Of a DNA stretch of 20,858 nucleotides, positions 6,001 to 20,725 are shown in pieces. The position numbers and the translations under genes are program-made. Origin of the DNA: a virus; the IMG/VR virus record IMGVR_UViG_3300021375_002223, positions 1 to 20,858 of that record; one strand, written 5' to 3'. Position 1 is the stretch's first letter. Each line of letters starts with the position of its first letter. Below the pieces are notes generated by a model that was given only the letters and a program-made list of their open reading frames with translations, made no database searches and had not been told where the DNA came from.

Positions 6001-9000
6001 ATTATAAACATCACCAAACTCACCGCGTTTTATTGCCCACTCTTCAAATAATTCTATATTTTTATTTGTGTTTACAACATTTGATCTTATTAAACTTGTT
6101 AATGAGTTTGCAGTTCCTTTACTATTAATAATACCTTTGTAGTACTGGAATCCTATTTTGTCGTCTACTTTGATATCTGCATATTCATTTGTAGTTTCAT
6201 ATCCAAGTAAACCTTTTGCTAATTCAGATTGTACTGGATCTAGTAATGTTGCATCTTTATCATGATAAAGTCGTATGCTGTCAATTAATGTATCAAAGTT
6301 TGGTAATACTGCATCGCCGATAATAACAAGACCTTCTGCTTGATATCTGCCGTCCCAATTTTTACTTCTTTGAGTTTTTACTTCTAATCTGTCTTGTCTA
6401 ATACCTAATATGTTATCATTAATAACATCATTGAAAACTGTTTTGTTACTCATTACAAATGCATGTTCGACTAATTCTGTGTGAAGCAGTAATCCATATA
6501 TTCTATTATCTATCGGAGATATTGTAATTGTATTATCTTCTCTAACTACTGAACTATTTTCTGGTATAATTACTTTACCGTTTTCGTCTACAATACTATA
6601 TTGATCGTTTACCTGTCTTTGAATTTTTGATACTTTACCAGTAGTGCTAATAAATTTAACTGATTCTGATAGTGGACTTAATTTAATACTTTCGCCAACT
6701 GCATGTGTTTCTGTTGACCAAAACAAGAATCTTCGTCCTGCTAGTACCCAATCATTTAAACTGTTTATTGACGCATCGTATTCGCCAAAATCAAAACCTA
6801 TATCTTTTTGTTTTCTTCCTAGACTTACTAGGAAATCAAATACTTTTTCTACTGAAGTAAATGTTGTATCATAATAAACTTTTTCTGTTTTGCCAGTGCC
6901 TATTTGATATACTGTACCTGATGCACCGCCTATTGTTGGTAATGCGGCAATACTGGTCCATTGTGCTGTATTAAAAGCACCTGCACTAATATTATTTTTT
7001 GCTATGTAATATGTACTACCTAATTTAACAATTTCATCTTTAAGGTAATTTACAGTAGTTTCAAATATACTAAAGTCTGCTGGACTTCCTCCTTCTTGTA
7101 CACCTTCTTTAGGTCCTGCAAAGTCACTTGGTATTATTTCAAAATACTGTGATATTGTGTCGTAACCTGCTACAGAATACCCATTTGTAGTTTTTGTAAT
7201 TTTAACACCTGTATAAAAGTTTCTGCTATTATAAGGACTGGTATGTAAATTAACAGTTATATCTTCTGTGGGTAAAACTTGACTAGCACTAAAACCGTCT
7301 ACACTAATACTCTCACTATAAACTTTTAATGTTTTGCTATTAACAAATCCTGCAAACTTATGTCCTAATCTAGTGTCTAAGGTTTTAATTGGTTTTGCTA
7401 TTTCTGTTGTTGTACTTAAAGAATAAAATTTTAAATACTGATCAAGCAGTGATGTATATCCGGGTCTTAAAGTAATAACATTATCAGTACTTGTAAAACC
7501 GTGTGGATCATAATTTTGTCTAATTTTTCTTTTACCTGTATTTTTATCTACTACTTGCTCTGGTTGGACAGCAAGTTTGCTTGTACTTCTTCTGTCATAA
7601 AATTGTGATGTAAATTCTCCAGGCCTTGAAAGATATAATGCTTCTAGTACTGCAAACGGATAGTAACTACTTTTTCTCCAGGCATATTCTGCCGGTGATA
7701 TGTCACCAAATGTCCATTGCGAATTTATGCCTGGTGTACTACTATTAAAAGCAGTAAAAATAAAGTCTTGTGGTGATCTTAAATTACCCGACGAGTCTAC
7801 TGGTATTAAAGTATTAATTGTTGGTCTTGCCCAACGTTTCCAATAACCCTTTCTTGTTCCTGCTGGAATATAACCATCTCTGACATTATTCCAAAATGCT
7901 GTATATGAACTTGTGATTGCTGTAGGATATTGTGTGTCCCACCAACTTGGTTTTTTACAAAAGCCAAACATTTCCCATGGTGTTGTATTTGGAGTTTGTG
8001 TATCGTAGTAATAATCATACACGCCTCTCCAGTATCCTGGGTCGTTTGGTCCAGTTGCATAGTTCCATGTAAATTCATTTGTAGAATCATAAACTGTATT
8101 TGTTCTTGCATCTACATTACTTGCTCTAGTCCACTTATTAAAATTGCTTCTTAATAATTGATTGTACTCAACAAGGCTATAATCTGTTTCACAGAAGAAA
8201 CTAGGCTTTATTGTAAATTCATTTAAGTCAATATATTCGCATGTTCTGTATTCTTTTTCAATGTTGCTGTAAATGATTTGCTCAAATGCTAAAACTATAT
8301 CGTCAATCTTGTCATTTTGTCTTACAACATAACTACCATCGTGACATAAAATAACATCTTTATTTGTTTGATATGATGTATCTGTCATAAACTGTGGTTG
8401 GAATGCTCTGAACATTCCTAGTTTAGGTAAACTTGCTGGTACACTTGCAGATTCACTATCTTCGTAAATTCTTAATGTCAGTGTATCATCGAGTGCTAAT
8501 GTTATACTATTATCTAGTGTGACATCAAAAGGTAATGTAGTATCAATTGTGTAATCACTATCAGCACATAATACTGTATTATTATGCATTAATATATGTA
8601 AGTTTTTATCTAGTGACACATTTGCCGTATTGCTGAATGTGTATTCCTGTAAACTTATATTACTAATTGTTTTAGATTCTACTGCATAATCTGTACCGAT
8701 TGGTAGCATGTAGGATAAGTCATATGCATCTTTTGTAATTTTTGTTGACTTAATTGTTTTTAAAACTGTATCTAATATTTCTAAATTTGTTTGTGTTAAG
8801 TAATCATTATTTTTTAAATAAAGTTCTAAGTTTGTTAAAAACTTTCTTTTAAACTTATTATACTCATCATTACCAAATCTTAATGCGTTTAACAGGTTTC
8901 TATTTTCATTTTTACTAAGATACAATGAATGCAACAAGTCTGAATCTACTTGTCCTATATTAATATCGTTAATACTAAATGACTTGCTAGTATCTTTGAA

Positions 9001-11826
9001 ATTATTATTACCTGTTACTTTGCCTGTGAATCCTTCTTGGTTTTCTAAAATTTTATTTCCGTGTCCTACTAAATCACTTAATCTTGTTTCAGTAATTTCT
9101 GTGTTAAGAGGATTGTACTTTAATGCACTAGGAATCTCAAAGAAGCCATAGGAATCAATACTTGTTTTTCTTGCACCTTTAGTAAATGTTTTAACATTAA
9201 GTACATCTGTATCTTTTGGTGCAACTGCTTCAGTAAATGTGAAATCAAATGTTGCGCCAGTACCATGCCCATTGCTAGTTGCTGTTGTAATTATAGAACT
9301 GATGTTTCCAGGATGTCCAACTAGTTCGCTGTATAGTCCGTAATTGGTTACGGTGATACCTTTAATCTGTCCGCCACCGTTACTGATATTTCCATCGTAT
9401 GCTTCAGCATCACTAATAGCAATTTGTACATTTGAGTTGCTACCTGCAACACTCAATGTAAGTAAGTCACCTGTTTCGTATCCTAATCCAACATTTCTTA
9501 GTGTAACACTTTTTAGTGTTGGATTTAAAACTATACCAGTACTGCTAGTTCTAATAGCAAAATCTTTATTAATTGTTAATGGTGTATCATTTAATTTAAC
9601 TTTAATATCGTTTTCATATGGTGTAGCACTAGTTGTAAAGAATCTTTCTTTATCATTAATTTTGTCAATAATAATAACATCTTCTACATACTGTTTGGAA
9701 TGTGTTGGATGTACATCTTCATAAAATTTATAATTTGCTATATTGAAATTACCTGCTGTAATATTTGCATTTGCTACAAAATATTGATTATCATATTTTA
9801 CTATTTCATTTGTATAGTAAGTTTGTGTATTTGCAAAATCTCTATAGTGTGTTGGCAAACTAACTGGATGCCAATTATTTCTAAATCGTGGATTGTCTAA
9901 ACCTTTATAATCTTGTTGCAAATCTTTAAAGAACAAATACCCTGGTATAGTAGAGGTGTTTGCTAATAAGTTAGCCTTGTATGTTACAGTATGATTTCCT
10001 AAATGGTTAAAGAATGTAGGCTCACTGTTAAATTTGCTTGTTTGATAAACAATGTTAGCACCTAAGTCGCTATCAAATGTTGTGGTCTTACTGCTTGTCT
10101 TATCTGTATTATAAGTAAACACAGGGCAACCAGTAAAGTTACTGAATGGGTATTTTGCAGGATCATCTACTTTTGTACCTGCTGAGTCATATAAATTAAA
10201 TAGTGGTTCTTGATTAACTGCAATTTTTTGTTGTGCTTGTTTCCATGCTGTGCCAGTCCAAAAATAGTCTAATCCAATACTTGTACCTGTCACACTATAG
10301 ACATGTCCATTTGTAACAATGAGATTACTCAGTGTTGTATCTTCTGTAAATGATATCAGGCCACTGTTATCTACTACTCTGTAAATTTTTTGTGAAATAC
10401 TTTGTTCGTCTAGAGGGAAAATAATACTAGAGTTGGCTGTTGCTGATGCACTATTTACAGGAAAGCCTAAAGCCAGTCCTTCAATTTCTTCTTTCTTTTT
10501 ATCTGATACTATATCAACTTTTGATATAAATGTATTACCCCAGTTATATAATTCTATATCTCTGTCAAATTCTAAAATAGGTCGTGTTGCTCTACGAGCC
10601 GATGTTGGTAGTGCAAATCCTGTAGTGTTATCTTTTAATGGTTCACGCAATTCGTTTACATGCCACCAGTAATTTAATCTACTCCATGGGTTTTTATTTT
10701 TAGCACCTTTTTCAACAACCATGTAGTCTGGATTGTCTTGAGTTGTTTCTGAACCCCATGGCGATGTTCCCCAGCCATTTTCAGTATCAATATTAAATTG
10801 GATTTGTGGATTTATATATGTAGCATGAAAATCATCTATTGCAAAGTTTTGATTCCATACAACTCCATCTGGCAAGTAAAAAGTTCCGCCACCGTCAACT
10901 TTAGCATATACCACATTACCTGTTCTCTGGGCAGTATTACCTAAGTATTTGACATTATTTGTAACAGCATCTCCAACTTTTAATTGTAAGTTGCCTAGCC
11001 ACATTGATGAATTATCATGTGGTGCAGTAGTATCTGCTATGTTTCTCCAAGACTGTTTAAAGTCTCCGCCTGTTGCTGTGACATAATCACCTGGCAAGTT
11101 GGATTCTGAATAATATTGATTTAATACTGTCTGCGTATATGTAGATGCATTTGATTGCTCAAATGTGAAATCTGTATATTCTGCATAAGCAGATGTCGAA
11201 TCTGCTGGTAAAAGTAATTCTATTGCTTCGCCTACACCTGTAACAACATAAGCGGTATCTACACTATAAGATGTACCTGTAGCATATGAGCCAGTAAATC
11301 TAACAACCATTTCATTTCTAAGTGTAGTTCCTGTTGGTGATGTAAAAGTCTTTAATCCTATAATGTTGTCTATATTAATTGATACACTAGCATTACCTGT
11401 GACTTCAGTGACTTCTGGACCTGTTGGGTACCAGTAGTAATCCTGATAATTAATTAATTTGTCAAAGTTAATTGGCGGTGCGTATGCATACTGATTTGTT
11501 TTGAAAAGCCTATCATGATTTTCTATTAATCCACCTTTGCTTCTTAAGTCATATAAAAAGTCTTCGTAGAAAGTATAGTTTGTTGGTTTACCTGTTGTTG
11601 AATTTACTGTGGTAACCACAGGATCAAAACTGTAATATTCTCTATTAGGTGCAGGCTGTTCTATAAAAACTGTATTACTAGTAATATCTCTAGGAGTTCC
11701 TATAAAGCCTTGTATGTTTTCTATATTTGATTTTGAGAACAACTGCTCAACGGTGCTTTCAAAGAAATTCTTATTAACACTCGTCTGGTGTTGTATTGGT
11801 AATAAGTCAAAATACTTGTTAGTCAT
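1..11826 (-). CDS. Giant putative virion structural protein, downstream of gp6 (partial, 3' end outside window)
   Basis: I read this frame codon by codon from the ATG at 11826 to base 1 and found no stop, so at least 3942 residues are encoded and the true end is outside the window. The start overlaps the gp6 stop as TAATG, with AGGTGGAA at 11844-11837 as a possible ribosome-binding site, although that site also encodes the Gly/Ser tail of gp6. Visible landmarks are NYQDYYWYP at residues 126-134, a Trp-rich stretch near 370-430 containing NPWSRLNYWWH and RPILEFDRDIELYN, and a second Trp/Tyr-rich block near 1247-1340 (TPWEMFGF, PSWWDTQYP). Later come long Thr/Asn/Ser-rich beta-type stretches, one with ITNGGDGYASKP near 2015-2030. 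I see no signal peptide, transmembrane segment or enzyme motif. Very large proteins of this style follow gp6 in marine T4-like phages, and T4 itself has gp7 at this position. A baseplate or tail role is inferred from context, not from a recognised domain. Confidence 0.85.
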   Translation of the reverse strand, partial: MTNKYFDLLPIQHQTSVNKNFFESTVEQLFSKSNIENIQGFIGTPRDITSNTVFIEQPAPNREYYSFDPVVTTVNSTTGKPTNYTFYEDFLYDLRSKGGLIENHDRLFKTNQYAYAPPINFDKLINYQDYYWYPTGPEVTEVTGNASVSINIDNIIGLKTFTSPTGTTLRNEMVVRFTGSYATGTSYSVDTAYVVTGVGEAIELLLPADSTSAYAEYTDFTFEQSNASTYTQTVLNQYYSESNLPGDYVTATGGDFKQSWRNIADTTAPHDNSSMWLGNLQLKVGDAVTNNVKYLGNTAQRTGNVVYAKVDGGGTFYLPDGVVWNQNFAIDDFHATYINPQIQFNIDTENGWGTSPWGSETTQDNPDYMVVEKGAKNKNPWSRLNYWWHVNELREPLKDNTTGFALPTSARRATRPILEFDRDIELYNWGNTFISKVDIVSDKKKEEIEGLALGFPVNSASATANSSIIFPLDEQSISQKIYRVVDNSGLISFTEDTTLSNLIVTNGHVYSVTGTSIGLDYFWTGTAWKQAQQKIAVNQEPLFNLYDSAGTKVDDPAKYPFSNFTGCPVFTYNTDKTSSKTTTFDSDLGANIVYQTSKFNSEPTFFNHLGNHTVTYKANLLANTSTIPGYLFFKDLQQDYKGLDNPRFRNNWHPVSLPTHYRDFANTQTYYTNEIVKYDNQYFVANANITAGNFNIANYKFYEDVHPTHSKQYVEDVIIIDKINDKERFFTTSATPYENDIKVKLNDTPLTINKDFAIRTSSTGIVLNPTLKSVTLRNVGLGYETGDLLTLSVAGSNSNVQIAISDAEAYDGNISNGGGQIKGITVTNYGLYSELVGHPGNISSIITTATSNGHGTGATFDFTFTEAVAPKDTDVLNVKTFTKGARKTSIDSYGFFEIPSALKYNPLNTEITETRLSDLVGHGNKILENQEGFTGKVTGNNNFKDTSKSFSINDINIGQVDSDLLHSLYLSKNENRNLLNALRFGNDEYNKFKRKFLTNLELYLKNNDYLTQTNLEILDTVLKTIKSTKITKDAYDLSYMLPIGTDYAVESKTISNISLQEYTFSNTANVSLDKNLHILMHNNTVLCADSDYTIDTTLPFDVTLDNSITLALDDTLTLRIYEDSESASVPASLPKLGMFRAFQPQFMTDTSYQTNKDVILCHDGSYVVRQNDKIDDIVLAFEQIIYSNIEKEYRTCEYIDLNEFTIKPSFFCETDYSLVEYNQLLRSNFNKWTRASNVDARTNTVYDSTNEFTWNYATGPNDPGYWRGVYDYYYDTQTPNTTPWEMFGFCKKPSWWDTQYPTAITSSYTAFWNNVRDGYIPAGTRKGYWKRWARPTINTLIPVDSSGNLRSPQDFIFTAFNSSTPGINSQWTFGDISPAEYAWRKSSYYPFAVLEALYLSRPGEFTSQFYDRRSTSKLAVQPEQVVDKNTGKRKIRQNYDPHGFTSTDNVITLRPGYTSLLDQYLKFYSLSTTTEIAKPIKTLDTRLGHKFAGFVNSKTLKVYSESISVDGFSASQVLPTEDITVNLHTSPYNSRNFYTGVKITKTTNGYSVAGYDTISQYFEIIPSDFAGPKEGVQEGGSPADFSIFETTVNYLKDEIVKLGSTYYIAKNNISAGAFNTAQWTSIAALPTIGGASGTVYQIGTGKTEKVYYDTTFTSVEKVFDFLVSLGRKQKDIGFDFGEYDASINSLNDWVLAGRRFLFWSTETHAVGESIKLSPLSESVKFISTTGKVSKIQRQVNDQYSIVDENGKVIIPENSSVVREDNTITISPIDNRIYGLLLHTELVEHAFVMSNKTVFNDVINDNILGIRQDRLEVKTQRSKNWDGRYQAEGLVIIGDAVLPNFDTLIDSIRLYHDKDATLLDPVQSELAKGLLGYETTNEYADIKVDDKIGFQYYKGIINSKGTANSLTSLIRSNVVNTNKNIELFEEWAIKRGEFGDVYNHQSMDIKLDESKFTRDNQQVEIVYPENVTGAVSNIFVFERNTTYYSVPAIEIDAPATGNAATATAKLFANAQLESVTITNGGDGYASKPNVAVITGNIVISEFSDVLAYGLAGSSAGVDQPLTGANALTNVSITDHTTSTTRDIYLGNERNIDNVVFAINKDLLSANVANVTAFSDIDTPAEIHSATQITKGTTARVTTATNIQLNTHIAPKESHVVDLKLQNPAVIELAIEGVGGTNSIYTDSDSITFVNNTANIINTANIINKTFYVKRIPDSNSLPTYELYTNENLNANVNATTWTQPGANLQSLSAFQTANADLANLQFNLSSIGASHDTSLFAEVSALNGTYFVKKLTNTTFDLYSDPALQVPLNTSSLTAQYSTSNSSFVNIQANISLLGTGGDNRLFIRGYDFTLAESSLPGGSPSTSLATLNMTAGRYQPTQRFPIRSANNTTTDDIIVSVDGKNVATTYWAYDRGNRTSITANTSIVNDYSINPNNAFQIVLSGNSKFETDNIVNIDGKYPFTEVYIDNQRIYNTPEYTAFSLANDSTTTTISFSNTALYTDNFSIGSNITVIESGSVQFNNTFTADVPGKVLSIKSVANDTLIANTISKRTYNKTVDDLTDNKITIDIDDTESMLKRPSNSLQDGLWYRDYKEDYIIPNAGYVNRNKINWEAIDLPYFAKHIGTGKSRIPFENDYLHLGKSENEDWNIFRLKKHGIEGAGGFISGAKNYIESVDGRAMLFSDQRLSKWTDGNVLGDKTNADFYDNVIVVKNANLSDTVLEWSNEDFVLTPRVVYKGDYKPLKKIARGITKIRPGDTKPIQSVEPYKDPNYRARIYAEHVHPVQNLEFFTKASVVKDNLPNAHTQSVLVAPNSMNGLGVGDTVRFFGSQATAANLTVGKAYTVTGLSEKGLGGNPGAVEVDDPSKGFFTINEANVTGSDYASINSECYVSYESSLDFTVSTRVKGLSGTNTVKLELGDAYNNSVASYMSNGLTFNFADIGSQRLTDKNDFFDIAKDYTVANWNSSDKTFTITANVRTPNTGTISRTAYNEITLAGFGNNDGKGNSILSGANATIIDTGDFVQFTSTGAYAGNVYPVQSNDGNFIQIYDPATTSNTASRTAVIYTGSKETRTGVVSSLTSNSLTITGFTTSNLGNYGFGNVQYMNSNTSTSIIPGVSGTKRPFKINSNTIIMDVADSVRTMTSRFPVHTLRDTTNKTVDLFFKDDSAGEFARTLFNTSEKTPEEQDLLSNNPGNLFNYNNKPVYLGLGLPTTNSALTLETDFAGIPESLRSIDGVELDLEFRYVTSEGLTQLLEQTGIQPNIQEYLQHPYWDQSGGDADEAYSENWMNNAFEMLAKTENFDTAWWIENFTYKQETPSMDGMFIELQARNGSSISSKLDLIPRYYGSHQALQYTGEVEKGLSISGINSNLVDKNNKNKVKLDFSDHHSMTDVLSIVDRKNNNLIWTDPNGNNIPVHSGQPEKIRARLKTNKLRPSHVNGGQYPFEWWGEDVRNTFGQGADNKLILNVGFENGLTGLPLHSNFELAVPIVIINSAKIKYTLAPTTKNELINLRVAIKDDSGGFADIVDRKIKEVNNSSVTIDNSDNKFAANDTSNNLKAMIYQIDENKNKQVLVNDFGSTVEQSTTDGGYSSILLQPRSGSSSLIAGTTQAYISKLYTEIAPAGTFYMGINNSANVSLPSMFGSNLDIVFDYLPLNNTGNSTKVISAPNVAIDVHAVEPQHKMFMDTEAVDNNILRFADTQHNASSVLTGNIAVSNTQPNYAIIPKSIADNVGSFAINQSEKANLGAIVSSAVGSQLIINKPNNLLSATDTIFINTSGSANGINNTEFAIKSVTQNTFTIGLANTNVIPTAELTSMKYLVYPAPTLTGDATTSSVTSRVIHVPANTHIFAVGDSITLSTGSTDTASVNSQTFIVNKAYENAFEINHATRPTSLTTTLTAALTGNANMHVVSVPPGYQIPNLTASIYDPENNYNLGGNIDVTMKN

Positions 11827-14800
11827 TAGTAACCACTTCCACCTGATCCACCGCTACCACTACTGCCACTGCTACTGCTACTGCTTGTTGTACTTGACTT
11901 AGTGATTGCATTACCTTGAGTTTGTCTTAAGTTAGTTGCTGATAAACTCTTAACAACTTCAATGTTATCTACTGTTGCTGTTGAAAAGAATAGTTCATCT
12001 GAATCTGCTCTTACTTGATATAAGTCACCAAATATAGATTCTGATTTGCTAGGTACAATAACAACTGATGCTATTGCTTTACCTAACTCTTGGTGAATAT
12101 ATGCACTTAACTCTGAAAAATAAAATGTTTCTCCAAAGTCCCAATTTTCAACGTTAAAATATGTATCAATTAATGTTAGTACAGCACTTCTAATTTCTGC
12201 ATCACTAGTTGTGCTACCTGGTAGTTTTACCACTTTAATTTTTGCTTGTAATTCAGTATCAGCATCATCGCCAAATAACAGTTTAAATTTGCCACTGCTA
12301 TATACTAGTTGATCACTGACACTCTTAAATTCGTCTAGACCTGCAAATTCTTGTGCAAGTTGTTCTGCTGTTGGTGGTTTTGGCAAAGTTGTTGTTCCGC
12401 CATTTTTATAACTAATCATGTTTTGATAATATGATTTTGTTAGCATGAACATTTCTACCACATTACTGATACTAGGATCTATCCTAACATCACTTGGTGC
12501 AATGTGTTTCCATTCGAAAGAACAATTCCTTGGAGTTTCTTCTAATGTGTTTTGTTCAAAACTTCTACCAATCTTTACATTATATTGATTGTTTGCTGTT
12601 AGCACAATCATTTTTGGTGTAGTTACATCGTTTATTAATTCATATACTTTAGGTAATAATGATCTTGGAAATACTAATTTGTGATTTAGTTTACCTAAGT
12701 TGTTTTTTAAACTTGCTTCTGCTACAGAAAGATCTTTAACAATTATAAGATCAAAGTCTGTAAATGCAGTTTTGTTATCTGGGTCACTTCCAGGTGCAAC
12801 TGTGTCTAATACAAAATCTACTGATATAGATGTTTCTGTTGCAAAGTTTAATATTTTAAATTTGGCTGGTCTTTCATAAGTGTATCCATCTAAATCTGTA
12901 TACTGCTCAAAAAATACAAAATCTGTACTGCCAACAAACTGATCAAACAAGTCTGGATTATCTGGGAAGCCGTCGTAATCTGAATCAATTGGTTTAACAA
13001 CAACCTTTGCCGGATCGGCAAACCCATCGCTATATCTGTAAGAATCTATTATTTCAAACTGTAATGGCTTGTCTAATGATTCTTTTACATTTTTATAAAC
13101 TATTTCTAATTTGTCTGCATGTTTAAATCCATTCCATCTACTACTTAAACTATCAAAGTCAGAAATTTTAATGCTAGTATCTGATACTAAATCAATATGC
13201 CCTTCTGTTGCGGTGTCGCCTACTGCAAAGGATGTAGTTGTAGCATTACCTGTGTACGACTTGTAACTACTTGAACCAGTGTCATAATTTACATAAGCAA
13301 TGTTTCCGTTTGCTCCGCCAGTTAATGTTGTGCCAAACTTACTTAATGGTATTGTAATACTGCTAGGTAGTGCTGAAAGTTTTGCACTATTTAATTTTAC
13401 TACTGCTTTACCTGTTGTTGCTGAAATTGGATCAACTGCTATGGTTGTTGATACTGCCGGGACAAAATTGCCTTGGCTATAATCTGCTGAGCCTGATACT
13501 CCTGCTTCACCATTTATAAGTAGTCCAAAGTTACTAACAAATCTAACTTCTAAGTCTTTTGCTTTAGCATCTCTGCTTCTTAAAATAATTTCTGGACTAT
13601 TGCCTACATTAGGTGTGTAGGTAGCATTTGTTGATTCTAATTGCCAACTGTCACTTATATCATCTAAATTTGTATCTACCCAATTATATGTTTCAATTAA
13701 TTCTGGTTTAAAGTTTGCAGTAGTTAATGCTATTGTATCTTTTAATACTCGGCCTGTTTGTGAATCAAATGTTTTCTCATCACCTGAAAAATAAAACTTG
13801 ATGTCTTTTAAACTTTCAAATATAAGCCTAGTACCACGAGATGTTACTGTATAATTAGATATACTTGTTGTACTTGTTGTACTATTATATTCAAATTTCA
13901 TTAACCAACTTGCACCATTTGTGATAGTTGGTACAAAGTCTGCGTTTGCTTGTAGACTAGAGTTATCAATGATATACCAATGTGTACCATTTGCTGTACC
14001 TGGATTAAAATTATATCCTATACCAAAGTCTTCTTTGGCATCAATCCTGTTTTTAAATGCTGTTCCTATATCTGCTTCTAATAAAGCAGAGTTAAGTGTA
14101 GGGATAATCTCTACGGCTCTGTGAGCATTTTTAATTTCTTTGTTTAGTTTTACAACACCTTCTGTGACACTTAGTAAATTATTAGGCACACCGTTATTAG
14201 TAATGCCGGTAATTGTTGCAAGTTCTGAAATTGTTGGATCTGCTGGATCTTTAAATGTGATATATGATCCAGGCTGTATAATTCTATTATCGTTAGTGCT
14301 ATTATTAAGTGTTGTTCTAGCACCGTTTTCAATTCTTGTGAAGTATCCAGTGTTGTTTTTATTTTTGCTAGGCTGAGTTACCCATGTAATATCTTTGTTA
14401 TTTGCTGTTAAGTCAAATGCCAATGCATCTAATTCTTTGTGAAGTTTTCTATAGTCATCATATACAAAGTTCTGCAAGTTTGTATCTTTTGTGATGTTTG
14501 CTACATCTTCTTTTAATATTTGCAATATTGTTTTGCTTGAACCAAATGTCAAATAAGTTGATTTGTTTTCTTCATCTTTATATAATGCCCCGTCATCTGC
14601 AAATGATGTTACACTACTAAATCTTCCTGTTGGATCTTCGATATCAATATATCTACTATGTCCAGCATGTGTTCTATTTGTTGCTTTTAATTTTAATATG
14701 TTTACACTTTGGCTTAATGGAAATACATTATAGTCCTGAGCACTTACCATTCTATTTTGAGTGTAATATGTTTGCGGTGCTCTTCGCTTAATACTTGAAA

Positions 14801-16037
14801 GTGTCTCTGCGGCTGAGCCATTAGCAACTGTTGACTTTAATGACATTGTTAATTTTAAATTAAATTTTTCACCTTTGTTATTAAAGTAAGGTATTGATAA
14901 AGGAACTTCCTGCAAATTCTGTGGCCTTACAGTAACATTTTCTCCTAGACTTGTTCTGTAGTAAACTCTAAAAATGCCTGAAGGTATATTTGCAAAGTTC
15001 CCATCTGAGAATCTTACTCTTATACCGTCATCAAATAAATTGTCAATTGCATATACATTTCTTTCTTCTAAACTATTAGAGTTATATAATAATGTTTGCC
15101 CTTGCAGATTATTTACTTTTTTCCAACTTAGTTGTCTGACTGCATTTTCATCTAGTTGTTGTACAAAAACATCTGTTTCATTAATATTTGCTATTGCAAG
15201 ATCTAAAATTCTATTTGGTAATGCTCTTTCAAATATGTAATCTTCAAAACTTAATGTTCCTTGTTTGAACATCATAAAGAATCCAGTGTACTCACTGCCA
15301 AGTCCTCTTTTATCATTTCTGTAACTTACACGCATTTGGCTGTAAATGTCTGGCTCTGCTTCTTTGAATACCCCATTTTCTATATTTGTACTAACAAATT
15401 CAATAGGTACACTAGTACCATTAATAGTTATAGAACTTGAAAATACTGGTGCTGTACCAATTTGATTATTTAAACCATATACCTGCGTTGAAATACCACC
15501 AACTGTTTCTTCTTTAATTGGTTTTGTAAATGGGTTGCTTAAAGAGAATGCACTATTTAATATTGTAATAAATTGATCAAAACTATTTGCGTTTGATGGG
15601 TCGTTCCAATCAATGGTAACATTTTGTAAACTTTCACCGGATGCATCTATGATAGGTTCATCTGTTTGCACACTTTCGATTTTAACCAATCCACTTGCTG
15701 GTATATTTCTTTTAGGTGCATACCCAAGCATGTCTGCTAATCTTAAAATACTATCTTTGCTTTCAGCAGTTGCTAAAAAGTTTTCTCTGGTATTAAGATC
15801 TGCTCTAAAAGCCAAACTCTGTGATAGATATGCTAATAATTCTACTATTGCTACAAATTCTGAACTTTCAATATAGTCATTAAATGACTCTGGATAGTTT
15901 TCCTTTATGTAATTCAGCATTGAAGTACGCATAGTACTAAAATCATATGCCTTAAAACTAACTTTGGTAAATGCCTGATAGGCTACTTCCCAGTCTTCTG
16001 CGGCGAATAGATTTTGATTTCTTGTACTAATTGCCAT
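11826..16037 (-). CDS. 6: Baseplate wedge protein gp6-like, greatly enlarged (1403 aa)
   Basis: gp6 forms the dimeric wedge ring that holds the phage baseplate together. The N-terminal region (about residues 29-123) has the gp6 pattern: a YDF element, an LLAYLSQSLAFRADLNTREN helix, then SILRLADMLGYAPKR. The C-terminal region near 1297-1375 has WDFGETFYFSELSAYIHQEL, then an IVPSKSESIFGDLYQVR segment and ELFFSTATVDNIEV, as in the gp6 C-terminal domain. T4 gp6 is 660 residues; this one is about twice that, with the extra length mostly in a beta-rich middle. D1018, D1020, D1022 and D1026 form a DxDxDGxxD loop typical of calcium binding. The protein ends in a low-complexity Ser/Gly tail. ATG at 16037 is preceded by AGGGAG (16050-16045) and overlaps the gp25 stop as TAATG. 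The family is firm; the function of the insertion is unknown. Confidence 0.88.
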   Translation of the reverse strand: MAISTRNQNLFAAEDWEVAYQAFTKVSFKAYDFSTMRTSMLNYIKENYPESFNDYIESSEFVAIVELLAYLSQSLAFRADLNTRENFLATAESKDSILRLADMLGYAPKRNIPASGLVKIESVQTDEPIIDASGESLQNVTIDWNDPSNANSFDQFITILNSAFSLSNPFTKPIKEETVGGISTQVYGLNNQIGTAPVFSSSITINGTSVPIEFVSTNIENGVFKEAEPDIYSQMRVSYRNDKRGLGSEYTGFFMMFKQGTLSFEDYIFERALPNRILDLAIANINETDVFVQQLDENAVRQLSWKKVNNLQGQTLLYNSNSLEERNVYAIDNLFDDGIRVRFSDGNFANIPSGIFRVYYRTSLGENVTVRPQNLQEVPLSIPYFNNKGEKFNLKLTMSLKSTVANGSAAETLSSIKRRAPQTYYTQNRMVSAQDYNVFPLSQSVNILKLKATNRTHAGHSRYIDIEDPTGRFSSVTSFADDGALYKDEENKSTYLTFGSSKTILQILKEDVANITKDTNLQNFVYDDYRKLHKELDALAFDLTANNKDITWVTQPSKNKNNTGYFTRIENGARTTLNNSTNDNRIIQPGSYITFKDPADPTISELATITGITNNGVPNNLLSVTEGVVKLNKEIKNAHRAVEIIPTLNSALLEADIGTAFKNRIDAKEDFGIGYNFNPGTANGTHWYIIDNSSLQANADFVPTITNGASWLMKFEYNSTTSTTSISNYTVTSRGTRLIFESLKDIKFYFSGDEKTFDSQTGRVLKDTIALTTANFKPELIETYNWVDTNLDDISDSWQLESTNATYTPNVGNSPEIILRSRDAKAKDLEVRFVSNFGLLINGEAGVSGSADYSQGNFVPAVSTTIAVDPISATTGKAVVKLNSAKLSALPSSITIPLSKFGTTLTGGANGNIAYVNYDTGSSSYKSYTGNATTTSFAVGDTATEGHIDLVSDTSIKISDFDSLSSRWNGFKHADKLEIVYKNVKESLDKPLQFEIIDSYRYSDGFADPAKVVVKPIDSDYDGFPDNPDLFDQFVGSTDFVFFEQYTDLDGYTYERPAKFKILNFATETSISVDFVLDTVAPGSDPDNKTAFTDFDLIIVKDLSVAEASLKNNLGKLNHKLVFPRSLLPKVYELINDVTTPKMIVLTANNQYNVKIGRSFEQNTLEETPRNCSFEWKHIAPSDVRIDPSISNVVEMFMLTKSYYQNMISYKNGGTTTLPKPPTAEQLAQEFAGLDEFKSVSDQLVYSSGKFKLLFGDDADTELQAKIKVVKLPGSTTSDAEIRSAVLTLIDTYFNVENWDFGETFYFSELSAYIHQELGKAIASVVIVPSKSESIFGDLYQVRADSDELFFSTATVDNIEVVKSLSATNLRQTQGNAITKSSTTSSSSSSGSSGSGGSGGSGY
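11829..11885 (-). repeat. Ser/Gly low-complexity coding tail of gp6
   Basis: The last 19 codons of the gp6-like gene encode only Ser and Gly before a final Tyr. At DNA level this is a run of near-repeated triplets (act, gct, acc on the plus strand). It probably forms a flexible C-terminal tail or linker. Its DNA also holds the Shine-Dalgarno-like AGGTGGAA used or shared by the next gene. Such triplet runs can vary in length between relatives by slippage. Confidence 0.6.
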
Positions 16038-16408
16038 TATGCTTCTCCCTCAAACTCTCGTTCTAATCTCATTTCCAAGACATCTCTGCTTTGATCTACA
16101 TTATACTCTAAATACAGTTCAACTTTTAATAAATGATCTGAATTTTCAATATTAACATCTAGTAGTTCTACTCTAGGATCATTTCCAACTATATTTCTGC
16201 ATTCGTCTTCAACATCTTGCTTTGTTAAATTGTCAAATGGCTCCATCAGTACATCATGAATTATGCTACCATATTCGGGTCTCATGACTCTTTCCCCCTT
16301 ACGAGTTAGGAAATGATTAAGTAAATCTTGCTTGACTAAATCTAAATCCGTTAATGTGTAAGGCGGTTTTTTCTTATTATCTGTACTGAATCCAATAAAT
16401 GTTGCCAT
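16037..16408 (-). CDS. 25: Baseplate wedge protein gp25 (GPW/gp25 family)
   Basis: gp25 is the small wedge protein at the baseplate core that helps start sheath assembly. The 123 residues fit the family (T4 gp25 is 132). Recognisable elements are the FIGFST opening, DLDLVKQDLLNHFLTRKGERVMRPEYGS (residues about 21-48), which matches the family's gp25/lysozyme-like core, and DPRVELLDV near residue 77. In the last of these the usual conserved EPR triad reads DPR. Its stop overlaps the gp6 ATG (TAATG), so the two are probably translated together, as suits two proteins of one wedge. No Shine-Dalgarno sequence is visible before its own ATG. A late-promoter-like octamer lies only about six bases upstream, so the message may have an extremely short leader or none. 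Confidence 0.93.
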   Translation of the reverse strand: MATFIGFSTDNKKKPPYTLTDLDLVKQDLLNHFLTRKGERVMRPEYGSIIHDVLMEPFDNLTKQDVEDECRNIVGNDPRVELLDVNIENSDHLLKVELYLEYNVDQSRDVLEMRLEREFEGEA

Positions 16409-16413
16409 ACATA

Positions 16414-16421
16414 TATTTATC
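16414..16421 (-). promoter_or_regulatory. Late-promoter-like octamer GATAAATA before gp25
   Basis: The minus strand reads GATAAATA, one base from the T4 late consensus TATAAATA. It sits in the 63-base gap upstream of gp25. Its 3' edge is only five bases from the ATG, so a normal start site would fall on or beside the start codon. The match is clear; the placement makes activity uncertain. Confidence 0.4.
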
Positions 16422-16471
16422 AGTATTATTAACGGATACTTTAATGATGGGTGTTTTTGAGTCGTTTACTA

Positions 16472-17050
16472 TTATTGGGATTTGAGTTGCTGACTAGCCA
16501 TGTTAATTACAGCGGCCTTCTGTGCATCAGACATGCCGTCTAGTGCTTTTTGAATTTGCTGTAAATCGGCTGGATCAGATGTAGCACCTTTTACCTGTGG
16601 TTGCCCACCTGCAGTTCCGCCACTATCTGGTAATGCTGATAACATTGCAATTTGTAAGAATATTTCTTTTTTAATGTTTGGATCTAGTTGAACAGGATTT
16701 TCATCTTTAAACATTTTTTGTATGCTAGGCTGACCTTTAAAGACCGGAAAGCCTGCCGCGGCTTGACCTTTAAGTAACTGTGATGTTTGCATAAAGTCTT
16801 TCAAGTGTTCTGTATTGAGGAAATTAGGATCTTGATCAGGGTATTTTCTGGCTAGCCATGTTGTAAATGCATCAGAAACTTTATTTGCGCCTTTCATAGC
16901 ATCTTGTTGCACTTTACCTTTTAAGGCTTTATTATGCATCTTAGTACTACCCATTTTACCTAAAGCAGTTCTACCCATATTTGCAACTGCGGCTTTTCCT
17001 CTAGACAAAAGTCCAAATTCTTTTTCGTTTATGATCTCTTCAATTAACAT
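16472..17050 (-). CDS. Unknown 192-aa phage protein with capsid-targeting-like N-terminus
   Basis: I do not recognise a family. The 192-residue product begins MLIEEIINEKEFGLL, then a basic stretch rich in Lys, Gly and Ala to about residue 60. A Trp-containing helical segment follows (AFTTWLARKYPDQDP), then a Gly/Gln-rich linker near 143-155 and a Gln/Ala-rich helical end. There is no signal peptide or membrane segment. The short acidic-amphipathic start with an I-x-E step (IINE) resembles the cleaved targeting peptides of T4 internal head proteins, so a packaged or prohead protein is possible; this is inference. ATG at 17050 is preceded by GCAGGAG (17066-17060) and by a late-promoter-like octamer. 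It stands directly upstream of gp25, so it is probably expressed late with the virion genes. Confidence 0.8.
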   Translation of the reverse strand: MLIEEIINEKEFGLLSRGKAAVANMGRTALGKMGSTKMHNKALKGKVQQDAMKGANKVSDAFTTWLARKYPDQDPNFLNTEHLKDFMQTSQLLKGQAAAGFPVFKGQPSIQKMFKDENPVQLDPNIKKEIFLQIAMLSALPDSGGTAGGQPQVKGATSDPADLQQIQKALDGMSDAQKAAVINMASQQLKSQ

Positions 17051-17070
17051 GATTATTATCTCCTGCCAGT

Positions 17071-17078
17071 TATTTATC
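17071..17078 (-). promoter_or_regulatory. Late-promoter-like octamer GATAAATA before the 192-aa gene
   Basis: The minus strand reads GATAAATA 20 bases upstream of the ATG at 17050, one base from the T4 late consensus. It is identical to the octamer before gp25. A start about six bases downstream would leave a short leader that still holds most of the GCAGGAG ribosome site. Being in the divergent gap between opposite gene blocks is what would be expected for a promoter driving the 192-aa, gp25, gp6 and giant-gene run. Confidence 0.5.
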
Positions 17079-17097
17079 TCTTTGATGTAATGATTGT

Positions 17098-17103
17098 TAT
17101 AAT
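17098..17103 (+). promoter_or_regulatory. Possible sigma-70 -10 box (TATAAT) before the cargo operon
   Basis: A perfect TATAAT hexamer lies about 30 bases upstream of the nucleosidase ATG, in the 83-base divergent gap. I see no convincing -35 box at 16-18 bases spacing. A host-type early or middle promoter is therefore possible but weakly supported; in AT-rich DNA the hexamer can occur by chance. Confidence 0.3.
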
Positions 17104-17133
17104 TACAAGTACAACTATTAACAAGAGGTTACT

Positions 17134-17685
17134 ATGAAATATGTTTTAGTCGTTGCATTAGCGGACGAACTTGAAGGCTTACAAGGTGATTATAATACTG
17201 TGATTACTGGTGTAGGCAAAATTAATGCCACATTGGCTCTGACAAAATATTTAACAGAAAATCCAGATACAGAAATGGTAATAAACTATGGTACTGCTGG
17301 AGGCATTGATCCTAATATGAAAGGCATGCTACATATTGGTAAATTTGTTCAGTCTGATATGGATTGTAGAGAGTTTGGCTTTGCACAATATCAAACACCT
17401 TTTGAAACAAATACACACGAAATAGTGGTTGACGATAAGGCGTTTACATGTTATACTCAAGACAAGTTTGCTACAACTCAACCTGAAGGTTATTGTAATG
17501 TAGTTGATATGGAGGCGTATGCACTTGCAAAAGTGTGTATGCATTTTGGAGTAGACTTCAAATGTATGAAGTTTATAAGTGATATAATTGGACAAGGAGA
17601 TCAGACATCTGACTGGGAGGCCAATAAGGCCCTAGGTGTAGAAATGTTTGAATCAGGTTTTAAAGACCTAATAGGAGAAAAATAA
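17134..17685 (+). CDS. Compact MTA/SAH nucleosidase-like purine nucleosidase (PNP/UDP family)
   Basis: Family members of the MTAN type hydrolyse methylthioadenosine, S-adenosylhomocysteine or 5'-deoxyadenosine to adenine plus a sugar, in the cytoplasm. Key residues are in place: E12 at the position of E. coli MTAN E12, TGVGKINA (25-32), INYGTAGG (50-57) for the phosphate/ribose-side loop, VDMEAYALA (124-132) with the ribose-binding Met-Glu, and the catalytic Asp in FISD (D150). At 183 residues it is about 50 shorter than the E. coli enzyme. The main loss is the segment between the first strand and TGVGK. ATG follows AAGAGG at 17123-17128. The next gene, a TonB-dependent receptor, starts one base after this stop. 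Substrate preference (MTA/SAH versus another nucleoside, hydrolysis versus phosphorolysis) cannot be read from sequence. Confidence 0.85.
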   Translation: MKYVLVVALADELEGLQGDYNTVITGVGKINATLALTKYLTENPDTEMVINYGTAGGIDPNMKGMLHIGKFVQSDMDCREFGFAQYQTPFETNTHEIVVDDKAFTCYTQDKFATTQPEGYCNVVDMEAYALAKVCMHFGVDFKCMKFISDIIGQGDQTSDWEANKALGVEMFESGFKDLIGEK

Positions 17686-17686
17686 A

Positions 17687-19372
17687 ATGGAAAAATTTCT
17701 ATACGATAATATCGTAAAAATTGCAATGGTAATAACATTGCCGCTATGGACAGCATTTGCTCTAGCAGAAGATATAGAAGAAGTAATTGTAGTGGCTCAG
17801 CAAGTTGAAACCACAGAAGCAGATCCTTTAACATCTACTACAATAGTAGAAAGTATACTACCATCGTTTACTTGGACAGCAGGAGGCACTGGTGCCTTTC
17901 AAGGTTACAATGAACGTGGTGCTCAAACTGTACACACCGCAGTATATAAAAATGGCATACCTGCAAATACACCAGGGTCTGCTTGGTATGACTTTGGACA
18001 CGAAATTGTAAGTGGTCAAAGTGTAAAAGTTATTTCAGGTGCTAACGGTGTCATGTATGGCTCCGGTAGTATTGCTGGTACAGTATTAATTGAGGATACT
18101 ATCGAAAGAAGTATCACATCAAAATTAGGTAGCAATCAAGAAAAGTATATTAGTGTTGCTCCTACATCATGGTTTCAGTACACAGACTACACAACCGACC
18201 AACAAGCAAGAAACGACAACACAGAAAGCGACACATACGAAAATCAAAGTGCCAAAATTATTGCTGATGCTGGCGACTTTACATTTATTGTGAGTGCTAC
18301 AGATTACTCATACGATTATGATAATTGTTATACTGCTAGTTTCAGTCAAAGCAATGATTGTTTACAAGACGGTGAAAAATTCACAGTCAGTATTAGAAAT
18401 GAATATTTTACTATTGGTAGAACAGAAGACAAAGCAGAATACTACACAGAAGGTGTTAGCACATATCAAAACGAAAGTAGTAGAGATTATTTCAGAGCAG
18501 GTGATACAGTAGACCTGTCTAATTTATTACAAGTAACATACGGTGTTGATGGCAGTAAAGATCAATACAACGAACATAGTCAAGATAACTACGGTGCTTT
18601 CTTAAGCATAAATGCCGAATTTGCCCTAAAGTATAACTTTGGATTCAGAGTAGGCAATGCTGATCAAAATGCACTAAGGCTAGGTATCGAAAGCGGACAG
18701 TTCTTTATGAATGTTGGTACAAGTTTTAGACGTCCTAATTTATACGAAGTACATGGCGACAGTTGGGTAAGTGCTAATGAAGATTTACTACCAGAAGAAG
18801 GTACCGGTTACGAAATAGGTTTTGGTGCTATTAGTTTATTCATGTATGATTTTGAAGAAGCCATTGAATATGCAAGTGGATATACTACTACTAACATTAT
18901 TGCGCCTGCAACTTATGATGCTGATGGCAATCTTTTAACTGAAGAAGTTACAGAAGATGTTTACACACCAGCGGCGTATTACAACACAGGCAGTTACTCT
19001 ACGCAAGGGGTTAGGTTTGCTAATACATGGGGTCCTGTAAGTATTGTACTTAAAGTAAACGACACAGAACAAGTTAGAATACCAGAATATGTTGCTGTAA
19101 TAACTTGGCAACAAACATTTAAAGGTGTTGACTACAGAATTAAATATGCTGGACAGTTTGATAGAGCACCAGGGCAGTATGATTTCTTACCTGAAGGACA
19201 AGAATTCTTAGACGACTTAAAAAAACTTAATATCTATGTTGGTAAACAGTTTGCATCTGGTGTCAACTTAAACTTTACAATAGATAATGTTACTGATGAA
19301 GAAGTAGAGGTACTGCCTTTCTATAATACACAAGGCAGAGAATACAGATTGGCGTTGACTTATAAGTGGTAA
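17687..19372 (+). CDS. Phage-encoded TonB-dependent outer-membrane receptor (BtuB-like architecture)
   Basis: TonB-dependent receptors take scarce ligands (iron chelates, cobalamin, glycans) across the outer membrane using the TonB-ExbBD motor. This 561-residue protein is complete. It has a signal peptide with a hydrophobic core at about 11-26 and a probable cut after A27 (FALA/ED), and a TonB box at about 31-37 (EEVIVVA). The plug runs to about 137, with ERG (76-78), the VYKNGIPANTPGSAWYDFG stretch and SVKVISGANGVMYGSGSIAG (112-131). The barrel has the diagnostic FRRPNLYEVHG (347-357), ending in DNVTDEE then YNTQGREYRLALTYKW, with terminal Trp where Phe is usual. The start of the plug looks shortened compared with BtuB, and the whole is smaller than BtuB's roughly 614 residues. 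C214 and C225 could form a loop disulfide. AGGAGA (17673-17678) precedes the ATG. The ligand is unknown; the BtuB resemblance is in layout and the end motif only. Confidence 0.93.
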   Translation: MEKFLYDNIVKIAMVITLPLWTAFALAEDIEEVIVVAQQVETTEADPLTSTTIVESILPSFTWTAGGTGAFQGYNERGAQTVHTAVYKNGIPANTPGSAWYDFGHEIVSGQSVKVISGANGVMYGSGSIAGTVLIEDTIERSITSKLGSNQEKYISVAPTSWFQYTDYTTDQQARNDNTESDTYENQSAKIIADAGDFTFIVSATDYSYDYDNCYTASFSQSNDCLQDGEKFTVSIRNEYFTIGRTEDKAEYYTEGVSTYQNESSRDYFRAGDTVDLSNLLQVTYGVDGSKDQYNEHSQDNYGAFLSINAEFALKYNFGFRVGNADQNALRLGIESGQFFMNVGTSFRRPNLYEVHGDSWVSANEDLLPEEGTGYEIGFGAISLFMYDFEEAIEYASGYTTTNIIAPATYDADGNLLTEEVTEDVYTPAAYYNTGSYSTQGVRFANTWGPVSIVLKVNDTEQVRIPEYVAVITWQQTFKGVDYRIKYAGQFDRAPGQYDFLPEGQEFLDDLKKLNIYVGKQFASGVNLNFTIDNVTDEEVEVLPFYNTQGREYRLALTYKW

Positions 19373-19408
19373 ATTTATCACTATTATAAGCAATTAAAAC
19401 TCATTTAG

Positions 19409-19416
19409 TGTAAATA
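19409..19416 (+). promoter_or_regulatory. Possible late-promoter-like octamer TGTAAATA
   Basis: TGTAAATA differs by one base from the T4 late consensus and lies 33 bases before the ATG of the first small cargo ORF, in the 76-base gap after the receptor gene. It could allow the two small genes to be expressed separately from the receptor. Evidence is only one near-match in AT-rich DNA. No clear terminator hairpin is seen in the same gap. Confidence 0.25.
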
Positions 19417-19448
19417 ATTTTAGGTAAACATTAAAATCAAAGGACCAT

Positions 19449-19712
19449 ATGAAAACCGATAAAATTATCAAAAGAATAGTTGCAACATTTAAAGAATTAG
19501 AATCAAAGGCTACTGAAATGAATTCCGCAGGAGGTATAAATTTTATACACCCAATGGTACAAAGAGACCGACGCGGTAAGTTTGATAGCCTTGGATTTTA
19601 TAATTCAAAAACTAAAAGATATGCTCTAGTTTTTATTAGAGATTATATTGCTAGAAATGTAGAACACATTCCAGAACTAGATGACATGAGAAGAGTCATT
19701 ACTAGCAAATGA
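19449..19712 (+). CDS. Small protein of unknown function (87 aa)
   Basis: I do not recognise a family. The 87-residue product is basic, with an N-terminal amphipathic helix (KIIKRIVATFKELESKATEM), a middle stretch containing a Gly pair and HPMVQRDRRGKFDSLGFYN, and a helix-like end rich in charged residues. There is no signal peptide or membrane segment. AAAGGA (19439-19444) precedes the ATG with only four bases of spacing, which is short but usable. Its TGA overlaps the next ATG as ATGA, so the two small genes are probably translated together. It is coding rather than noise because of its ribosome site and coupled junction; no function can be assigned. Confidence 0.7.
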   Translation: MKTDKIIKRIVATFKELESKATEMNSAGGINFIHPMVQRDRRGKFDSLGFYNSKTKRYALVFIRDYIARNVEHIPELDDMRRVITSK

Positions 19713-19924
19713 CCGAATCATTAACAAAACAATTTACTAACGACACGTTAGAAGAGGAACTTAGAGTTATGCTCGTTGAGAAAAACAACGAGTGTAACAT
19801 GCTAAGAGAACATATTAAAATGCTTGAAAAAAGTGTTGCTGATGAACAGGAACAAAAATATAGAGCATTAGTTAAAAGTGCAGATCTGCAACTTGAATTA
19901 AATAAATTAGATACTACTAAATAG
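19709..19924 (+). CDS. Small coiled-coil protein of unknown function (71 aa)
   Basis: This 71-residue product is largely a predicted helix with heptad-like spacing of Leu/Met/Val from about residue 14 to 67 (LEEELRVMLVEKNN, then NMLREHIKMLEKSVADEQEQ), as in a short coiled coil. It is rich in Glu and Lys and has no membrane segment. Its ATG overlaps the previous stop (ATGA), with AGAAGAG at 19690-19696 as a distant ribosome site. Its 3' end runs 18 bases into the end of the convergent lysozyme-like gene. It is probably a small accessory or scaffold-type protein; the partner is unknown. Confidence 0.68.
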   Translation: MTESLTKQFTNDTLEEELRVMLVEKNNECNMLREHIKMLEKSVADEQEQKYRALVKSADLQLELNKLDTTK

Positions 19925-20725
19925 ACTTACTTCAGCAACACGCCTATCAAAAAGCATGTTACTGACACCCATACCTTTTTGCTTTACTACTTCTGCAAAT
20001 TCCATAAAGTAAGTAGCACACTGATAGTCGCCTGTGTTTAGGCACTTAACTATTTTGCTTGTTGCAAATTTATTATGACCAATGTCATATGCTAATGAAA
20101 TTAATGCAACAAATTGATTATGAGTAAGTGGTACTTTTATTTTATCTGTGACAGTATTATATGCTGTACTAATATCTAATTGAAGTAATCTGTCAATGAA
20201 CTCTGGTTTTGCACCATTGATAAAACTATAAACATAATAGTTTTCCATTTCATTGTAAACTGCAATTGGTTTATTTGCAACATCAAAATCTATAACACCA
20301 TTCTTAAATAACGACGAGCCTTTTAAGTAAGGATGATTCATTCTAATAGTTTTTGCTACTCTAGGATCTTCTAAAGGCAAAATTCCATTATCATTAAATG
20401 CTATCATCATATTAGATATTTCTGATTGTTGCAACTTATGTGAAAAACCAATGTATGTTTCGCTTGTTAATTCAGTTGGTATAATATAAGATTTATAATT
20501 GCTCACAATAAATTCTTTTGCGTGAAATAATACTTTGGTAGTAGTATGATTATTTACAGACTGAAACTTAGGTGTCTTTCCGTCTATCTTAAAATACACA
20601 GGCATTAAGGGATCAGTGCCTTCATAATTTACACCAGTGTATGAACCTTGCGGAGAATAATAATCCAATGGCGAAACATCGCCAGGATCTACTTGACCTA
20701 TTGCCAAATTATCTATGTAGGCCAT
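19907..20725 (-). CDS. Lysozyme-fold (GH24-like) protein with apparently lost catalytic residues
   Basis: GH24 muramidases cut peptidoglycan, and T4 carries one in its baseplate protein gp5. The C-terminal part here is clearly that fold: VPLTHNQFVALISLAYDIG (198-216), then FATSKIVKCLNTGD and a closing RRVAEVSLF (261-269). The N-terminal lysozyme half can be lined up without gaps as KEFIVSNYKSYIIP (70-83) and YIGFSH (91-96). In this alignment the catalytic Glu becomes I73, the Asp becomes I82 and the Thr of TIGxGH becomes Y91. About 60 extra residues lie between the halves, and about 65 residues of unrecognised sequence precede the domain. AGGAG (20739-20735) supports the ATG, which overlaps the upstream stop as TAATG. 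It is more likely a structural baseplate or tail part with a borrowed fold than an active endolysin. No signal peptide is present. Confidence 0.75.
   Translation of the reverse strand: MAYIDNLAIGQVDPGDVSPLDYYSPQGSYTGVNYEGTDPLMPVYFKIDGKTPKFQSVNNHTTTKVLFHAKEFIVSNYKSYIIPTELTSETYIGFSHKLQQSEISNMMIAFNDNGILPLEDPRVAKTIRMNHPYLKGSSLFKNGVIDFDVANKPIAVYNEMENYYVYSFINGAKPEFIDRLLQLDISTAYNTVTDKIKVPLTHNQFVALISLAYDIGHNKFATSKIVKCLNTGDYQCATYFMEFAEVVKQKGMGVSNMLFDRRVAEVSLFSSI

Follow-up and report, generated by a model that had tools for sequence, protein, structure and literature searches.

A complete BtuB-like TonB-dependent receptor gene, maintained and exchanged among phages

Based on profile searches, structure prediction, gene order and selection analysis, we here confirm that the 561-residue open reading frame at 17687-19372 (+) of a 20,858-base virus record (the window, i.e. 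the whole stretch of DNA analysed) encodes a complete TonB-dependent receptor, with signal peptide, TonB box, plug and predicted 22-strand barrel. The receptor is of the BtuB (vitamin B12) type. An intact TonB receptor in a T4-like phage, among virion genes, had been claimed in the preliminary description, and is borne out by profile, structure, synteny and selection. The family retains a complete and conserved BtuB-like architecture under purifying selection, and has long been maintained and exchanged among phages. We infer that the receptor is expressed, membrane-located, TonB-driven and corrinoid-binding, and our preferred reading, held with modest confidence, is that of a phage-owned outer-membrane transporter importing one fixed small ligand, most likely a corrinoid. 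A group of large ocean phages thus carries its own long-maintained gene for a B12-receptor-like gate in the host outer membrane, which suggests that the virus controls host uptake or attachment during infection.

All the parts listed in the preliminary description are found in the reading frame. The ribosome site is a Shine-Dalgarno AGGAGA (17673-17678, +), 8 nt upstream of the receptor ATG and within the 3' end of the preceding nucleosidase gene. A predicted signal peptide (residues 1-27, 17687-17767, +) ends in TAFALA and is followed by ED, as judged by eye from the sequence and the alignment; most aligned members in a 39-member alignment have A-x-A followed by E or D at this cut. The TonB box IEEVIVVA (residues 30-37, 17774-17797, +) aligns with the E. 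coli BtuB segment DTLVVTAN, and its I30, E31 and V35 are invariant in 39/39 members. The plug domain spans residues 47-138 (17825-18100, +), and the 22-strand beta-barrel residues 142-560 (18110-19366, +). NERGAQ, VMYGSGSIAG and SFRRPNLYE are all present, and the C-terminus reads LALTYKW.

The plug and barrel profile check fared unevenly. PF07715 (Plug) matches residues 47-132 of the window receptor (E 2.6e-7), scoring 31.6 bits against a curated cut-off of 23.9, and matches all 39 members at E up to 0.01, whereas the Pfam barrel model PF00593 misses the window receptor and is found in only 5 of the 39. The plugged 22-strand barrel expected from the preliminary description was recovered in an AlphaFold2 model built from the 39-sequence alignment (pLDDT 83, pTM 0.79), in which DSSP gives a plug and then 22 barrel strands, as counted by hand. 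The top PDB fold match (Foldseek) is BtuB:TonB at E 1.6e-19, with BtuB structures at TM-scores of 0.70-0.73. Searched against PDB sequences, the 39-member profile matches BtuB at E 2.8e-18, with PhuR next at 0.012. NCBIfam and PDB sequence searches with the window receptor alone gave no match, while its relatives do match: TIGR01779, 'TonB-dependent vitamin B12 receptor', is both the best and the most frequent family (33/39, best E 5.7e-17), though the window receptor itself has no match to it at E 0.01. With hhalign, run against E. coli BtuB as the single target and not against a database, the family aligns from end to end, TonB box included.

On the question of which receptor subfamily is concerned (BtuB, FecA or SusC), profile and fold therefore point to BtuB, and the receptor is neither FecA-like nor SusC-like. 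The SusC type was ruled out by fold, by profile and by the length of 561 residues. Among viral predicted structures, only one matches significantly, a SusC-type receptor from an uncultured marine phage (BFVD A0A8D9FQQ5), which is longer, of a different family, 11% identical and superposes at a TM-score of 0.56/0.41. No SusD-type match is seen among the window genes and no SusC among the PDB profile matches. The phage receptor shares with E. coli BtuB (TIGR01779/PRK10641) the plug and 22-strand barrel, a TonB box close to the N-terminus, acidic loops L2 and L3 and conserved plug and C-terminal strands, BtuB being the best PDB match by both fold and profile. It differs in length (561 vs 614 residues), in sequence (about 18% identical when aligned by structure, 25% with hhalign), in an extra L3 cysteine pair, in a partial match only to the calcium-binding aspartates, in being phage-encoded and in having no B12 riboswitch that we could find.

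A scan of viral contigs in IMG/VR retrieved 136 relatives with the single sequence and at least 238 with the profile; among the loci read, identity is 36-93%. About 70 columns are invariant among the 39 relatives that align end to end (38-87% identity), far more than chance would give, with invariant residues in the TonB box, the plug, L2 (R.DN.E.D.Y), L3 (YDYDNCY) and the barrel. Scans of 84,980 species genomes of bacteria and archaea, which start from short exact peptide patterns and may miss distant bacterial relatives beyond BtuB, gave no relative, and tblastn detected none in 50,697 phage records and none in 72,556 plasmids. Hence, with relatives present in IMG/VR and none found in bacterial or archaeal genomes, plasmids or catalogued phages, the family is phage-maintained. 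PHROG 5687 (760 positions, function unannotated) is matched by 36/39 members, in the window member over about 100 plug-region residues only.

Purifying selection is evident from pairwise dN/dS, with a median of 0.15 over 80 pairs and 0.07-0.19 in the pairs inspected. On a 0-1 scale, conservation is highest in L3 (0.88), L2 (0.81), the TonB box (0.80), L9 (0.79), the plug (0.77) and L7 (0.72), compared to an average of 0.63 for the barrel strands, while L5 (0.43), L1 (0.35) and L8 (0.31) vary. Both the sequence and the length of L5 and L8 are hypervariable, and in one allele type roughly 65-70 residues are inserted near L5. A transporter that is coupled to TonB, keeps one ligand and has several surface loops free to vary would be expected to show this pattern. 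L2, an extracellular loop and the same one as part of the BtuB calcium cage, bears the acidic motif RNDNTESDTY (residues 175-184; the loop and the start of the next strand cover residues 173-184, 18203-18238, +). L3 (residues 207-225, 18305-18361, +), likewise extracellular, reads YDYDNCY...NDC with a putative disulfide. The L2 motif R[NTS]DN.E.D.Y occurs in 76/76 unique full-length members and YDYDNCY in 68/76, as does the cysteine pair NCY..N.C, these counts being somewhat favoured because part of the sampling used the same motifs as search patterns; members found via UvsW or its neighbour are free of that bias.

Receptor alleles follow the genes around them only in part. Compared to the window, one set of loci (L288, L290-L296) is 85-87% identical in gp6 and 86-88% in the nucleosidase but only 45-51% in the receptor, whereas another (L003, L009, L010, L021) is 64-66% identical in gp6 and 81-87% in the receptor. 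As receptor identity is thus uncoupled from that of the flanking gp6 and nucleosidase genes, whole receptor alleles have evidently been swapped between phage backgrounds. In agreement, receptor distances correlate with UvsW distances at r 0.54 only, while those of UvsW and its neighbour correlate at 0.91. At window positions 11826-20725, compared to L288 and L290-L296, exchange of the receptor cassette leaves the flanks conserved.

In the window, the receptor lies between baseplate and lysozyme-domain genes. Upstream are baseplate wedge gp6 (11826-16037, -; phrog_10646, with PA5oct-like phages, Phosso and Atu_ph07 as the closest catalogued phages) and gp25 (16037-16408, -; PF04965, phrog_261), followed by a 183-residue MTA/SAH-type nucleosidase (17134-17685, +). 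The latter matches PF01048 and, under the curated cut-off, PRK05634 (E 1.8e-23); MTA/SAH nucleosidases are its nearest structures, and its MEA and ISD catalytic-region motifs are conserved. Its stop lies one base ahead of the receptor ATG, so the two are probably co-translated. Downstream, two small conserved reading frames of 87 residues (19449-19712, +; cluster 23) and 71 residues (19709-19924, +; cluster 25) accompany the receptor in the window's subclade, and a lysozyme-domain gene (19907-20725, -; PF00959) follows. At the other end, the first reading frame of the window (1-11826, -) is the opening part of a gene for a giant virion protein, with a match to phrog_10938 over its first 2,230 residues. 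The counterpart in a related record (G003, the contig of L008; 38880-60155) encodes 7,091 residues.

A search for the same gene beside gp25 and gp6 in other viral contigs, as proposed in the preliminary description, gave a positive result: the order gp6-gp25-nucleosidase-receptor-small reading frames-lysozyme is repeated in more than ten of them (L003-L010, L020-L021, L288, L290-L296). In this subclade, receptor and nucleosidase are adjacent on the plus strand between the gp25 block and the lysozyme-domain gene; in many other relatives the nucleosidase lies several genes downstream. Most relatives carry the receptor elsewhere, in the recombination module, in the order UvsX-UvsY-AAA-receptor-UvsW, i.e. 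between a 345-residue AAA protein (phrog_1250) and the UvsW helicase. The position beside gp25 is most simply explained as a secondary relocation from this module.

By sequence comparison, the phage that carries the receptor groups with PA5oct, Atu_ph07 and RaK2, jumbo phages of the T4 superfamily. Both gp6 and the UvsW of relatives match phages of this superfamily (the PA5oct group, Sinorhizobium Phosso, Agrobacterium Atu_ph07, RaK2 and others), UvsW being 54% identical to that of PA5oct-like phages; UvsX and UvsY were assigned by PHROGs, and one related record (G001) is 340 kb long. Immediately ahead of UvsW, no gene of receptor size is present in PA5oct, Atu_ph07 or Vibrio phage 2.275.O. 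In a UvsW tree of 143 sequences, which over-represents loci retrieved through the receptor, receptor-bearing phages form two separated groups, with 5 changes compared to 42 expected from shuffled labels. We note that in the second of these clades (the L062-L081 group), a 371-residue gene without a PHROG match, e.g. at 2475-3587 (+) of L066, separates the AAA gene from the receptor. The idea that the interval from the AAA gene to UvsW is a general 'outer-membrane protein slot' was rejected, as the genes found there in other lineages have, by eye, neither a signal-peptide-like start nor a barrel-like end.

We propose that the receptor would operate as follows. The host Sec pathway would export it and the host BAM machinery would insert it in the outer membrane, where the host TonB-ExbB-ExbD system would power it through its TonB box. 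During infection it would then import a single fixed small ligand. A corrinoid, vitamin B12 or an analogue, may be bound by L2 and L3 with a calcium-type acidic cluster, and its import would relieve a shortage in host cofactor metabolism. A search of 12 phage records gave no TonB gene, which implies a host with a TonB system, and the host TonB would serve. Judging from the class Ia ribonucleotide reductase NrdAB and from the hosts of related phages, this host may be Gram-negative, perhaps one of the gammaproteobacteria.

The identity of the ligand is the point on which the strongest alternative turns. It accepts uptake and disputes only the cargo: a BtuB-like scaffold that has drifted in specificity would carry a siderophore, haem, zinc, a nucleoside or a saccharide, which we consider quite possible, if somewhat short of an even prospect. 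The haem-type families TIGR01786 and TIGR01785 match 23/39 and 14/39 members, and the Foldseek PDB matches include Cir, PirA, PfeA, ZnuD and OprC; neither a B12-dependent ribonucleotide reductase nor a riboswitch was found. A B12 requirement through a class II reductase was ruled out, the phage enzyme being class Ia NrdAB and not B12-dependent, and an Rfam scan of the window and six related loci gave only a tRNA and no cobalamin riboswitch. Such a riboswitch upstream of btuB is common, not universal. Against a changed ligand, the haem-type matches are weaker than that to TIGR01779, the top and commonest NCBIfam match, and in the profile search a gap of about 15 orders of magnitude separates BtuB from all other solved receptors.

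The binding loops bear on the same question. The affinity of BtuB for B12 is governed by its loops L2-L5 and by a calcium cage of five aspartates close to the pocket (PMC7360065). The cage (D179, D193, D195, D230, D241) aligns only partially with the phage receptor: three of the five, D193, D195 and D230, fall near acidic residues that are conserved in L2 and L3 of the phage receptor, residue-by-residue equivalence not being established. Assignment of B12 or another corrinoid as the ligand is tentative, and we hold it to be a minority prospect. The adjacent nucleosidase, of SAH/MTA-cleaving type, and a protein with a B12-binding domain fit corrinoid/SAM metabolism loosely; the domain is encoded in only 2 of 12 records (G001 and G002, of one lineage). 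In G001 it belongs to a 616-residue protein (58-1908, -, of L300), probably a B12-type radical-SAM enzyme as far as its sequence tells, two genes from an NH3-dependent NAD synthetase-like gene. The fullest version of the transporter reading is that a marine jumbo-phage lineage owns, refines and trades alleles of a phage-specific, BtuB-like B12 importer, which would supply the infected cell with scarce corrinoid and might act jointly with the nucleosidase, which would clear SAH or 5'-deoxyadenosine; in this detailed form we regard it as rather unlikely.

Alternatively, the receptor may serve superinfection exclusion or receptor remodelling, leaving fewer receptors, or decoys, for other phages and bacteriocins with no need for transport, as the preliminary description had also entertained. 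BtuB-like receptors are classical phage and colicin receptors, and the exchange of whole alleles across phage backgrounds, together with the hypervariable L5 and L8, would suit such a role. So would the lack of the gene at this site in some close relatives (L135/L228, L227, L231 and L232), in which the AAA gene directly adjoins UvsW. However, a decoy needs no TonB box, and conservation is strongest in the TonB box, the plug and the putative ligand loops, with L2, L3, L7 and L9 exceeding the barrel wall; this pattern favours TonB-powered uptake. In addition, the known exclusion protein Cor acts on FhuA and inactivates this host receptor (PMC11436027), i.e. it disables a receptor and supplies no whole new one. 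We accordingly judge exclusion as the main function improbable, while the allele cassettes and the hypervariable L5 and L8 may reflect a surface role beyond transport.

A role as a virion or lysis component, with the barrel placed in the particle or permeabilising the outer membrane at lysis, is very improbable: the window receptor does lie beside baseplate genes and near a lysozyme-domain gene, but on the strand opposite to both, most relatives carry it in the recombination module, and the protein combines a signal peptide with a plug and a conserved TonB box. The possibility of an assembly chimera, which the preliminary description had raised against itself, or of host DNA mis-binned as viral is negligible, for although the record is a 20.9 kb metagenome fragment, the gene order recurs in independent contigs with receptors of 45-89% identity, at least 238 relatives lie in viral contigs and none was found in bacterial genomes.

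If the transporter reading is right, the consequences reach beyond this locus. Phage auxiliary genes are mostly cytoplasmic enzymes, while a conserved, phage-maintained outer-membrane nutrient receptor would put entry into the host across the outer membrane under viral control and could alter which receptors other phages and bacteriocins meet. Should the ligand indeed be a corrinoid, lytic infection would be tied directly to the ocean B12 economy, and were the receptor a B12 importer, outer-membrane vitamin uptake would become a viral trait. The conserved ligand loops, set against the hypervariable L5 and L8, make the question of uptake versus exclusion testable with one cloned gene.

A phage-borne receptor had been called unexpected, which holds only in part. 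The marine megaphage Mar_Mega_1 was reported with a SusC-type TonB receptor, proposed to raise nutrient uptake (PMC9723777), and likewise combines a TonB-dependent receptor with a large marine phage. In the pelagiphage Polarivirus skadi (Skadi), a gene among the structural genes is annotated as a TonB-dependent receptor, read by the authors as a hint to the receptor used (PMC10504331); unlike the window phage, Skadi is a small HTVC010P-type phage, and its annotated receptor gave no match to the window receptor in the phage-record search. Phage TonB receptors have therefore been reported before, whereas for a BtuB-type, phage-maintained family we found no description in the open-access literature searched. 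When BtuB itself is used as the query against phage records, mostly bacterial records or unannotated fragments filed under phage are returned. Examples are AFYI01000005.1 and CAKLQH020000002.1, 'phage' records that resemble bacterial chromosome contigs with a B12 receptor beside 16S rRNA; such mislabelled contigs are a source of false phage receptors.
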